DNA of 64,000 nt from Saururus chinensis. Taxonomy: Eukaryota > Streptophyta > Magnoliopsida > Piperales > Saururaceae. The notes under the pieces were generated by a model. The model made no database searches and was not told the origin of the DNA. It worked only from the letters and a program-made list of their open reading frames with translations. Location of the stretch: the NCBI GenBank assembly GCA_035235625.1, contig CP141140.1:56043351-56107350 (forward strand), read 5' to 3'. Position 1 is the first letter of the stretch. Every line of letters starts with the position of its first letter. Below, in pieces: positions 43,307 through 63,546 of this stretch. Both the position numbers and the translations under genes were made by a program.

Positions 43307-43311
43307 ATACT
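43307..43311. repeat. Left target site duplication ATACT of the array
   Basis: ATACT directly precedes TGTAACACC; the matching copy is at 63542-63546. Confidence 0.85.
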
Positions 43312-44115
43312 TGTAACACCCCGACCCGCACCACCTGACCCGGACCAGGTTAGATCGGAAGACACAATCGGAGTGTCGAAAATTAGCGGAAAAATTAAAA
43401 CCGACTGACCAGGAGCTGCAGACTCTGAGTGCGAGAGTCATAGCGTTCATCTACGCACTACGGAGATTTAACGTTCCATTGTGCGTAGATCAGAACAAAC
43501 CTAATTTTATAACTAATTTGGATCGGGCCAACGTTATTTTATCGTTGGTTGCCTACGTACATATTGGATACCATCTCTGACGTTATTCCAATACGATCGG
43601 ATCCGAACGTAGTTCTGCCTAATGGCTAATACATTTACCAAACATCAGAAAATCATATACAATAAAATACGTATACGTTATATCTGAATGATTCGTTCGG
43701 AATCCAACGAAAATCTTATCAGTCATCGGAGTTAAATGAAAGCCAATATATCAGAAAACACACATCTCACGTAGGTGAGAAGAATACTAACAAAACACAC
43801 ATCCCATTCTATCATAGAGCAGAGCGTAACACACTACGTAACCTTTGGATCATATCAGATTTTATCCGACCACACCGGTCATATCGGATCGAGTATGTTA
43901 CGTCATAGCAGAGAGCATTTAAGATCACAAATGTAATAAATCAAGATGTGCGGTCATATAAAGCATATTAAACTAGAAGGTCAAGAAAGCGTACTCCCCT
44001 CCAGTTTCGAAAGTGGCAATGTTCGGAGTTGCTTGTTTCCTCGGAGCGTCTGCCCTTTTTGATCCAGAGACTGTGGCCAGAACCTTCTGTAACTTTGGAT
44101 TACTTTACCCTCACA

Positions 44116-44270
44116 GCGCCCGTAGGCAGCGGACAGAACCTCCCCTTACACGGAGACATTTTACCCTCACAGTGCCCGTAGGCAGCGGACAGAACCTCCC
44201 CTTGTCCGAAGACACTTTTCCCTTCCCGTGCCCGTAGGTAACGGGCAAAACCTCCCCTTACCCTTGGGAT
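44116..44270 (-). repeat. 56-bp tandem repeat in each LTR
   Basis: Three units start at 44116, 44172 and 44228 (exact 56-bp period): GTGCCCGTAGGCAGCGGACA, then GAACCTCCCCTT. A fourth diverged unit lies apart near 44450-44500. The same block is at 50163-50317, 56194-56348 and 62286-62440. In element orientation it lies downstream of the TATA box, in the transcribed part of the LTR. Short open frames over it are repeated identically in all four LTRs but have no recognisable domain. Confidence 0.8.
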
Positions 44271-44643
44271 GTTTCTCTCACCTAACATTGATAATTCGAG
44301 GAGTGGATACTTTCATTGCGTTGCTCACCCTCGAATTAGCTAGGGAGGCCTCTTGAATGACTCTAATCGGACTTAAAATGATTAAGAAACGAAGAACGGA
44401 AGATGAGAAAACGTGGGAGAATTTCCCCTTACCCGAGATATTTTACCCTTTTCGCGCCCATAGGCGGCGGACATAACCTCCCCTTGGCCCGGGACGTTTT
44501 CCCTATATAGAGTTGCTAACTTGAAAAATTGACGCTTCCATTGCGTAGAGCACCTTCGATTTAGCTAGGAACGCATTTTGAACGGAAGAAAACAGACGTT
44601 GCATGACTCCCGAAACTCCTCCCGAAAACCGAACGGAATGAAC

Positions 44644-60400: not shown

Positions 60401-61481
60401 ATTAATTCCTATCGAAAATCGGAATCTATTTCAAACCGATATTCAGAACAATAATTTTAAATAATAACAATTTAGATGCGAAATTCGTAATATCAATCTG
60501 ATATAACATAAGTCGAACAGAATTTCTAAATTACATATAATTAAACAAATCAGAATTTATAAACATCAAAGTTTAGAGTAATTCCAATGTCACACTCATA
60601 AAAGAAAACTACGAATCAAATTCGATACAACTTATTCGTAGTAAAATGTTCAAATCATTGTAGATTCAGAATTAAACTTTTGATAAAAAGCATTGGCGCA
60701 CCAAATCCTTATGTAACAACTTCAGACATTCAAATTATTTCTGATTTGAAATCAAACTTCATAAAATTGTCGTTAGCAGCAATTACTTGCAAGATAGAAA
60801 TTTAAAATTATTTCTAATTCAAAGTCGGAAGTCGAAAAATCAAAATTTGTATAAAATCGAATAAAACCTTTGGAGAACAAAAACTCATGATCAGAATTCA
60901 TCTTGAATCTGATATAACATATGCAGAAGTTCAAAAATTGGAATCCACAAATCAGTATCACGTATAAATAGTAAAAGATTCATAATCGAAATTTTCTTTG
61001 AATCCGATATAATACATGTGGAACATAAAATTCAAAAATGAGAGTTGGCATTAAATATGATGTCACACGTATGAAACAAAAAATTCAATATCAGAGTAAG
61101 CATTAAATCCGATATCAGTCGTAGAGAATGGAGGTTCACGATCGGAATTATCCTTAATTCCAATGTCACATACGCAAAACTAACATTTAGGATTTTTTTT
61201 TTTTTTCGTTAACATGCAGGTGGAATGGTAAAAACATAATCAGAGGTTATTTTAATTCCAATATCATAAATGCGAGAACAACACATTCAAAATAACGAGT
61301 TTGTCATAAAGCCGATGACATATGTGCAAAACGGCAAAAATCACAGTCGAACTTTATATTAAATCCAAAAATACATTCGTTACAAAAAAATTCCAATTTA
61401 AAAATTGGAATTTGAAACACCTCAAAATATATTTTAAAATATTTTTCACTCGCATGACAGAGTAATGCTCCGATACCATTC
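57448..61481 (-). other. Internal region 3 of the array (non-coding)
   Basis: 4034 bp, same layout as regions 1 and 2. The extra length is mostly the longer (AT)n run (59506-59635). Confidence 0.85.
59506..59635. repeat. (AT)n microsatellite, unit 3
   Basis: About 130 bp of AT dinucleotides with one AA interruption near 59611; about 45 bp longer than in units 1 and 2. Confidence 0.95.
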
Positions 61482-63541
61482 TCGTAACACCCCGACCCGC
61501 ACCACGGCCCGGACCGGGTTAGATCGGAAGACACAATCGGAGTGTCGAAAATTAGCGGAAAAATTAAAACCGACTCACCTGCAGCTCCAGACTCTGAGTG
61601 CGAGAGTCATAGCGTTCATCTACGCACTACGGAGATTTAACGTTCCATTGTGCGTAGATCAGAACAAACCTAATTTTATAACTAATTTGGATCGGGCCAA
61701 CGTTATTTTATCGTTGGTTGCCTACGTACATATTGGATACCATCTCTGACGTTATTCCAATACGATCGGATCCGAACGTAGTTCTGCCTAATGGCTAATA
61801 CATTTACCAAACATCAGAAAATCATATACAATAAAATACGTATACGTTATATCTGAATGATTCGTTCGGAATCCAACGAAAATCTTATCAGTCATCGGAG
61901 TTAAATGAAAGCCAATATATCAGAAAACACACATCTCACGTAGGTGAGAAGAATACTAACAAAACACACATCCCATTCTATCATAGAGCAGAGCAGAACA
62001 CACTACAGAACCTGTTGGATCATATCAGATTTTATCCGACCACACTGGTCATATCAGATCAGAGTATGTTACGTCATAGCAGAGAGCATTTAAGATCACA
62101 ACAGAATAAATCAAGATGTGCAGTCATATAAAGCATATTAAACTAGAAGGTCAAGAAAGCGTACTCCCCTCCAGTTTCGAAAGTGGCAATGTTCGGAGTT
62201 GCTTGTTTCCTCGGAGCGTCTGCCCTTTTTGATCCAGAGACTGCGGCCAGAACCTTCTGTAACTTTGGATTACTTTACCCTCACAGCGCCCGTAGGCAGC
62301 GGACAGAACCTCCCCTTACACGGAGACATTTTACCCTCACAGTGCCCGTAGGCAGCGGACAGAACCTCCCCTTGTCCGAAGACACTTTTCCCTTCCCGTG
62401 CCCGTAGGTAACGGGCAAAACCTCCCCTTACCCTTGGGATGTTTCTCTCACCTAACATTGATAATTCGAGGAGTGGATACTTTCATTGCGTTGCTCACCC
62501 TCGAATTAGCTAGGGAGGCCTCTTGAATGACTCTAATCGGACTTAAAATGAGTAAGAAACGAAGAACGGAAGATGAGAAAACGTGGGAGAATTTCCCCTT
62601 ACCCGGAGATATTTTACCCTTTTCGCGCCCATAGGCGGCGGACATAACCTCCCCTTGGCCCGGGACGTTTTCCCTATATAGAGTTGCTAACTTGAAAAAT
62701 TGACGCTTCCATTGCGTAGAGCACCTTCGATTTAGCTAGGAACGCATTTTGAACGGAAGAAAACGGACGCAGAATGACTCCAGAAACTCCTCCGGAAAAC
62801 TGAACGGAATGAACTATTTATAAGAGATGGGCGTGCGAGCGGACGGAAGAAAGGGAATACGCGCGCACAGATGCGTGCCACGTGTCACACGGTGAGTGGA
62901 CCGAAAAAGTGGTCGGCGCACGTGACGCGTGCGTCTCGCGCGCGCCGTCACGGCGGGCGCGGCGAGCGCTGCCGCGCCGCGCGTCTGACGCGCGACGCGC
63001 GCGTTCGCCGCGCGTCCCGCGCGCGTCGCGCCTCGGCCACCGCGCGATCGCGCGGGACCCGCATCGCGCGGACGGCCGCGATCGCGCGGCGCCGCGCGAC
63101 CCGCGGCTCTGCGGCTCGGCTCCGGCTCGGCTCGACTCGGCTGGATGACGTCAGCTATTCTGTCTTTTTCTGAATATTTTATTATTATTTTAATTAAACA
63201 CAATTCCAACTTCAAAACGCGATAACTTTTTATCCCGAAGTCGGAATCGTACGTTCTTAGTACCGATGGACTCGTATTGACGAGCCCTTCAAAACTAGAC
63301 CCCACATGGGTAGGTTATCTCGCACTTTTAAAGTGGGTCCCGCCCATGTGGCACATTTCCCGAGGTCGTAACTTTCGTTCCCGACCTCCGTTTTGAGTGT
63401 TCTTGGGTGCGTTGTGCTCGTTACTTCGAGCTCTACCCAGATACAGAGATTTTACCTAATGAAACCCGAACCCTGATATTAAATTACCAAATTACCCTTA
63501 ACCCCCCCGGGTTAAGCATAACCGGAAGACGGGTTGTTACA
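61482..63541 (-). repeat. LTR 4 (outer 5' LTR of the array)
   Basis: 2060 bp, ending GGGTTGTTACA before the right ATACT. TATA box at 62822-62815 (minus), TGACGTCA at 63146-63153. Confidence 0.9.
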
Positions 63542-63546
63542 ATACT
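63542..63546. repeat. Right target site duplication ATACT of the array
   Basis: ATACT follows TTACA directly and equals 43307-43311. Confidence 0.85.

Follow-up and report, generated by a model that had tools for sequence, protein, structure and literature searches.

The 64,000-nucleotide stretch of Saururus chinensis DNA analysed here (contig CP141140.1 of assembly GCA_035235625.1, positions 56,043,351 to 56,107,350), hereafter the window, contains a 20.2-kb tandem array of a non-coding long terminal repeat (LTR) retrotransposon. Four LTRs alternate with three internal regions (internals 1 to 3) inside one ATACT pair (Table 1), confirming the arrangement that an earlier note, made from the sequence, had described. 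We hold it likely, at roughly three chances in four, that one insertion grew in place to three head-to-tail units through misaligned LTR recombination and that the differences between the units are mostly sequencing error.

Structure of the array

The units follow each other at a spacing of 6.04-6.08 kb, and at a register of 6.04 kb self-alignment of the window returns 14.2 kb (97.6%), far beyond chance. Read in reverse complement, the right end of the internals resembles what we take to be a primer-binding site (PBS) for a tRNA-Met primer, and their left end presumably represents a polypurine tract (PPT). With the PBS at the right end and the PPT at the left end of each internal region, the element is read as lying on the minus strand. 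Both inner LTRs, LTR2 and LTR3, have CATTC to their left and TTCTT to their right; these pentamers are where the PBS and PPT stretches end, so that neither LTR has a target duplication. The single outer ATACT pair without inner duplications, as claimed by the earlier note, is hence borne out and, together with the PBS and PPT at the inner borders, supports its further claim of one insertion. ATACT is present 71 times in the window, the pair by itself being weak evidence; it gains credibility from the 5-bp duplications that are common in the single elements and partnerless LTRs of the family (see below). Nested or independent insertions were considered as well and are ruled out by the exact PBS/PPT junctions and the absence of inner duplications. 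The locus thus displays the sequence features expected of a tandem LTR-retrotransposon structure, i.e., alternating LTRs and internals with an LTR at each end, one outer duplication and none inside.

Two details of the array deserve mention. The (AT)n run measures 104 bp in internal 3 and is shorter in internal 1 (82 bp) and internal 2 (84 bp). The first bases of LTR4 are atypical (TCGTAAC instead of TGTAAC), a change of the CTG-to-CTCG type that we take as a base-calling error.

Table 1. Features of the tandem array, with positions in the window.
Feature	Position	Strand	Basis or remark
Left target duplication ATACT	43307..43311	.	Sequence
LTR1, 3' LTR of the element	43312..45371	-	Derived states at LTR positions 1071 (44382), 1283 (44594) and 2004 (45315)
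Internal 1, non-coding	45372..49357	-	
PPT stretch, internal 1	45372..45384	-	Assigned from sequence
PBS stretch, internal 1	49343..49357	-	Sequence
LTR2, inner	49358..51414	-	Derived as in LTR1 at 1071, 1283 and 2004 and at five further positions within 1571-1609
Internal 2, non-coding	51415..55400	-	Richest in CG-type odd strings
PPT stretch, internal 2	51415..51427	-	Sequence
PBS stretch, internal 2	55386..55400	-	Sequence
LTR3, inner	55401..57447	-	States at 1071, 1283 and 2004 common with LTR1-2; ancestral at 1571-1609
Internal 3, non-coding	57448..61481	-	(AT)n run at 59506-59609
PPT stretch, internal 3	57448..57460	-	Sequence
PBS stretch, internal 3	61467..61481	-	Sequence
LTR4, 5' LTR of the element	61482..63541	-	Ancestral at 1071, 1283 and 2004
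Right target duplication ATACT	63542..63546	.	Sequence

Copies of the family elsewhere in the genome

The genome (516 Mb in 11 contigs) was searched for related copies; as these DNA searches score the best 38-40 candidates, copy counts are lower bounds. A matching 5-bp duplication was present in 12 of the 14 fetched elements with examined ends (L016 and L026 have none; L020 and L022 represent a single insertion), the first LTR bases of three fetched elements being divergent and their border placed by the duplication. Partnerless LTRs were in all 12 examined cases solo LTRs with a 5-bp target duplication, ten of them read by their ends.

Inner LTRs were sought by pairing 64 PBS-LTR junctions (at most two mismatches) with 50 LTR-PPT junctions (at most one mismatch; 216 at up to two). 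This yielded 21 complete internals at 19 loci and five inner LTRs at four loci, namely two in the window array, one in a second array, T2, one at a degenerate C3 locus and one on C8; internal 3 of the array was missed owing to the odd first bases of LTR4. T2 (C2:15908129-15922446) has three LTRs, with AGCTC outside and PBS/PPT ends inside.

Two same-strand PBS-LTR junctions located 5.8 kb apart (G000, C2:49401149 and C2:49406984) mark a possible further tandem array. On C8, a segmental duplication (L020, C8:18875000; L022, C8:18587300; ~288 kb apart, 98.8% over 10 kb) includes a family element, both copies of which carry the same AAGAC duplication.

Differences between the units

The earlier note had proposed comparing pairwise identities within the array. 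The values could be obtained, with a raw divergence of 0.6-1.6% between internals and of 1.3-2.2% between LTRs (2.0-2.2% for LTR1 vs LTR4), but they mislead in this assembly: the differences are mostly error-like, and raw divergence is therefore unfit for dating the units or telling them apart. One theme recurs, CAG or CTG in one unit facing CGAG, CGG, CGT, TCG, GCG or CG in another.

Counting a difference cluster as touching CHG (H, any base except G) or CG when such a site lies within two bases on either side, 39 of 44 internal clusters do so, the other five being indels with no substitutions. Among LTR clusters the figure is 41 of 46, and the rest are three indels and two plain single-nucleotide polymorphisms (SNPs). 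Random mutation would give 31% for internals and 47% for LTRs; pairs of array internals reach 89-94% and internals of different loci 43-62% (three pairs). Touching CHG/CG is a loose measure, and the strict class of CAG/CTG-to-CG swaps is sharper. Such swaps account for 67-70% of the clusters when array internals are compared with each other, and for 64% in T2. Among pairs of internals from different loci, the share is 1-19% for the 26 without internal 2 and 19-27% for the six with it, a higher share being expected if internal 2 itself carries many errors. Null models give ~4% (uniform) and ~11% (deamination). Swaps that are not single transitions number 11-19 per pair of array internals; the two nulls do not exceed 4 and 1, respectively.

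With one long cluster, the (AT)n run, left out, 29 of 43 clusters are swaps, with the CG form in one of the three units at 26 of these 29. Across eight other internals (two from T2), the 232 cells hold the CAG/CTG form 158 times, the CG form twice and another string 72 times. We know of no mutation process that yields this pattern, and it is very improbable that the CAG/CTG-to-CG differences are real mutations. Deamination can give CGG-to-CAG and CCG-to-CTG, and a direct duplication in the window that served as control (23582-24447 / 26876-27741; 866 bp, 98.3% identical, no gaps) shows four swaps among 13 clusters, three of them single transitions. Most swaps in the array, however, are not of that kind, and exact odd strings recur at unrelated loci (L013 at 633, T2b at 3049). 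T2b also contains a near-copy of the internal 1 string at 1763 and half of the string of internals 2 and 3 at 680, and the solo LTR L007 has at 515 the same odd string as LTR1 and LTR3. In the element of the C8 duplication, all 17 swaps (among 35 clusters) have their CG form in one copy, L022, as read from the printed strings.

The evidence is less clear for LTRs. LTR pairs of single elements already touch CHG/CG at 69-83% (four pairs), and swap shares range over 25-58% in the array, 9-29% in T2 and 6-38% in eight single elements. Since swaps are also frequent in certain single elements (38% of clusters in L018, 25% in L012), the artefact is not confined to tandems and the swap measure is weak for LTRs; these LTR figures weigh against our account of the differences.

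On these sequence patterns, most differences between the units look like base-calling artefacts rather than real mutations. A nanopore base-caller, expecting methylated C solely in front of G, most likely wrote CG for methylated CAG/CTG, and polishing failed in near-identical copies; platform, methylation and polishing are what we infer from the pattern. It has been reported that methylation likely lowers base-calling accuracy in plants, for which a plant-specific model exists, in a paper whose main text does not contain the term CHG (PMC9749173). This was the nearest match in literature searches on nanopore errors and methylation; among the papers listed, none links CHG miscalls to LTR dating, which is not proof of absence.

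Origin of the array

LTR sites were polarised with the help of 21 further LTRs (11 loci), using columns with at least 80% agreement among these and no gap in the array LTRs. Four columns (1071, 1283, 1300 and 2004) are derived in LTR1-3 and ancestral in LTR4, while five (1571, 1586, 1593, 1596 and 1609) are derived in LTR1 and LTR2 and ancestral in LTR3 and LTR4. There is no column in which LTR4 and only some of the other array LTRs have a common derived state; apart from seven columns that group LTR1 with LTR3 (see below), the remaining ones are private (19 in LTR3, 15 in LTR4, 12 in LTR1 and two in LTR2) or common to all four LTRs (one). With error-type sites set aside, the LTR sites are, as far as the sequences tell, nested: LTR4 is ancestral, LTR1-3 share derived states and LTR1-2 share more. 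In trees of the raw sequence, in which errors remain, the four LTRs form one clade and the three internals another, with a support of 1.0 each.

Such a staircase is what successive exchanges would produce. One non-autonomous LTR retrotransposon would have inserted on the minus strand, generating the ATACT duplication, and LTR1 would then have gathered mutations. Two copies of the locus, on sister chromatids or homologues, would have undergone exchange while misaligned, joining the right LTR of one to the left LTR of the other and adding one LTR-internal unit whose new inner LTR (LTR3) has its right part from LTR1. LTR1 would have gathered more mutations before a second exchange copied its end again (LTR2), leaving four LTRs, three internals and one duplication. 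Because the right part of a new inner LTR would stem from LTR1, each exchange would copy the states that LTR1 had accumulated, LTR3 recording them first and LTR2 second. That crossovers took place, in what order and when, is what we infer, as is the correctness of the assembled unit number. The inner LTR of T2 has the derived base at 96 in common with the right LTR and the derived deletions at 613 and ~1531-1590 in common with the left LTR; it is a hybrid with the polarity that a crossover predicts.

The earlier note had offered unequal exchange and a multimeric cDNA side by side; the polarised sites favour exchange after insertion and speak against the multimer. A multimeric cDNA, arising from a tandem transcript, template switching or joined cDNAs, might have integrated once as three units, with LTR conversion following later, and would account equally well for one outer duplication and none inside. 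This route is held possible in the Discussions of two studies (PMC7215508; PMC11899658), the former describing multi-unit Cassandra transcripts. However, the outer LTRs of a multimer should match at insertion, and the derived states that LTR1 has in common with LTR2 and LTR3 are absent from LTR4, so that LTR1 would in addition have to be converted by one of the inner LTRs. As the T2 inner LTR is moreover a hybrid of the outer two, we regard a one-step multimer as improbable. Growth in place through homologous integration of a one-LTR circle of the same element into an LTR would likewise give the same structure without a new duplication. Such circles are mentioned in the Discussion of PMC11899658 as intermediates from which tandem transcripts are templated. 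Here, the circle must have stemmed from the array element itself, given that the nearest other internal, L009, differs from internal 1 by 66 non-swap clusters and that the array internals have almost none among themselves. Sequence does not separate this route from chromatid exchange, and we hold it to be less probable still than the multimer.

It is also improbable that the assembler over-expanded the locus, adding one unit to the one or two present in the plant. Internals 1 and 2 invite this suspicion, for they differ by clusters of the swap type or touching CHG/CG, by 2 bp in the (AT)n run and by a poly-T change, without a firm difference. Against it, the LTRs fall into three distinct sets of non-error states (LTR4; LTR3; LTR1-2), which together with the longer (AT)n run of internal 3 make at least two units distinct, and a second array exists at another locus, T2.

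Several observations weigh against growth by successive exchanges. The firm sites of the first step are three only, as 1300 is of error type and is C in 3 of the 21 other LTRs; 1071 is T in 1 of 21. All five sites of the second step sit in a poorly aligning GC-rich stretch, and at 1609 three of the 21 have T. LTR1 groups with LTR3 against LTR2 and LTR4 in seven columns, six of them of error type and the seventh, 1569, in the GC-rich stretch. The 21 comparison LTRs derive from just 11 loci, and gene conversion between LTRs can mimic such patterns. Units 1 and 2 are not told apart by any firm SNP, and deciding between two and three units therefore requires reads. In T2, the left LTR has about eight private changes and the left side of the hybrid is supported by one site.

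A reading of LTR2 as a hybrid of left LTR4 and right LTR1, and of LTR3 as the reverse, was dropped, since the sites of the left part proved to be of the CAG/CTG-to-CG type. Growth of one insertion in place by LTR recombination is supported by the structure, the single duplication, the nested derived sites, the hybrid inner LTR of T2 and the solo LTRs of the family.

Coding content and class

That the element is non-coding, as the earlier note had it, holds as far as it was tested. Open reading frames of at least 60 amino acids were listed for internal 3 and LTR4; none of ten scanned from internal 3 and its LTR4 border reaches the Pfam cut-off, with sub-threshold matches only, and none of three LTR frames of at least 130 amino acids has a match at E 0.01. 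No RNA families or tRNAs were found in the window.

Its long LTRs (2.06 kb), PBS and PPT (assigned by sequence) and target duplication are those of a large retrotransposon derivative (LARD). Retrotransposon protein domains are absent from internal 3 and the LTR4 border, to which the scan applied, and the element has inserted repeatedly, as the 12 of 14 matching duplications attest, with the domain evidence limited to internal 3 of the array. The LTR ends and PBS tentatively suggest the Tekay lineage of Ty3/gypsy. A coding partner, which would be expected to have the pol domains typical of the lineage, was not found. It was sought through common PPT junctions (216 matches with at most two mismatches, 100 of them listed), and four loci were read over 4 kb; none has a frame of more than 140 amino acids, the frames not being compared with Pfam. 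What the loci L049-L052 have in common with the family is the PPT end together with short modules of the internal or the LTR, and little else; they possibly belong to a wider set of non-coding elements.

Neighbourhood of the array

The array begins ~1 kb from an FLZ zinc-finger gene and upstream of it (41430-42274, minus strand; Pfam zf-FLZ, E 8.8e-11 in the frame 41756-42274), in which 41430-41630 reads as a putative second exon. Elsewhere in the window, degenerate repeats of ~54 bp stand in tandem at 16854-17400, 73-81% alike by self-comparison, and a minus-strand frame at 23077-23583 weakly matches the PB1 domain (E 0.0067, short of the Pfam cut-off).

Relation to known systems and significance

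The suggestion of the earlier note that such arrays are rarely described was too strong. One rice genome contains 28 clear LTR-retrotransposon tandems, and others occur in Arabidopsis, almond and cotton (PMC11899658); Cassandra, a terminal-repeat retrotransposon in miniature (TRIM), forms arrays of up to 12 units (PMC7215508); and inner LTRs are found at four loci of the present family. As in the rice tandems, internals alternate here with shared LTRs, the units are highly identical and a 5-bp duplication lies outside, as it does in 10 of the 28 clear tandems of rice; in that study, too, a locus can occur in single-element and solo-LTR states (PMC11899658). All 28 hold retrotransposon protein domains, whereas the Saururus chinensis array is non-coding, with three internals. 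The rice study leaves the origin of tandem arrays undecided between complex insertion and recombination (PMC11899658), whereas polarised LTR sites favour recombination here.

Cassandra arrays are likewise non-autonomous and head-to-tail, with shared LTRs and more than two units, but Cassandra is short with 5S-bearing LTRs (PMC7215508), in contrast to the 2.06-kb LTRs and 4-kb internal of the present element. The three-LTR structures of barley BARE1, as related in PMC7215508, share the LTR-internal-LTR-internal-LTR arrangement through LTR recombination; BARE1, however, is an autonomous Copia element and the mechanism described joins neighbouring elements, which would presumably not leave one matching outer duplication. 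LARDs such as Sukkula are named in PMC7215508. The likeness to them lies in general features, namely long LTRs, a non-coding internal, PBS and PPT, and several insertions. The earlier note also saw such growth as one route to satellite-like arrays; the satellites described in PMC7004042 derive from short tandem arrays within LTR elements, a route that differs from whole-unit growth.

The array is thus of a known kind, a tandem LTR retrotransposon, and what is new is a one-locus test of its route of growth and a warning on divergence in such arrays. We consider it an even call that two successive exchanges can be read at this locus, as direct sequence evidence for growth in place, a route left unseparated from multimer insertion in the rice study, and that CHG miscalls persist mainly in near-identical copies, where they may inflate LTR ages and unit phylogenies of young and tandem retrotransposons several-fold in plant assemblies of this type and record CHG methylation in the sequenced plant. 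Between LTR1 and LTR4, real-looking shared-derived sites number 8 or 9 (~0.4%), plus some share of the private sites, vs the 2.0-2.2% of the raw comparison. Raw LTR divergence would hence overstate age wherever CAG/CTG-to-CG miscalls survive in near-identical repeats, and polarising LTR sites against family members would offer a simple test to separate the two routes, locus by locus.

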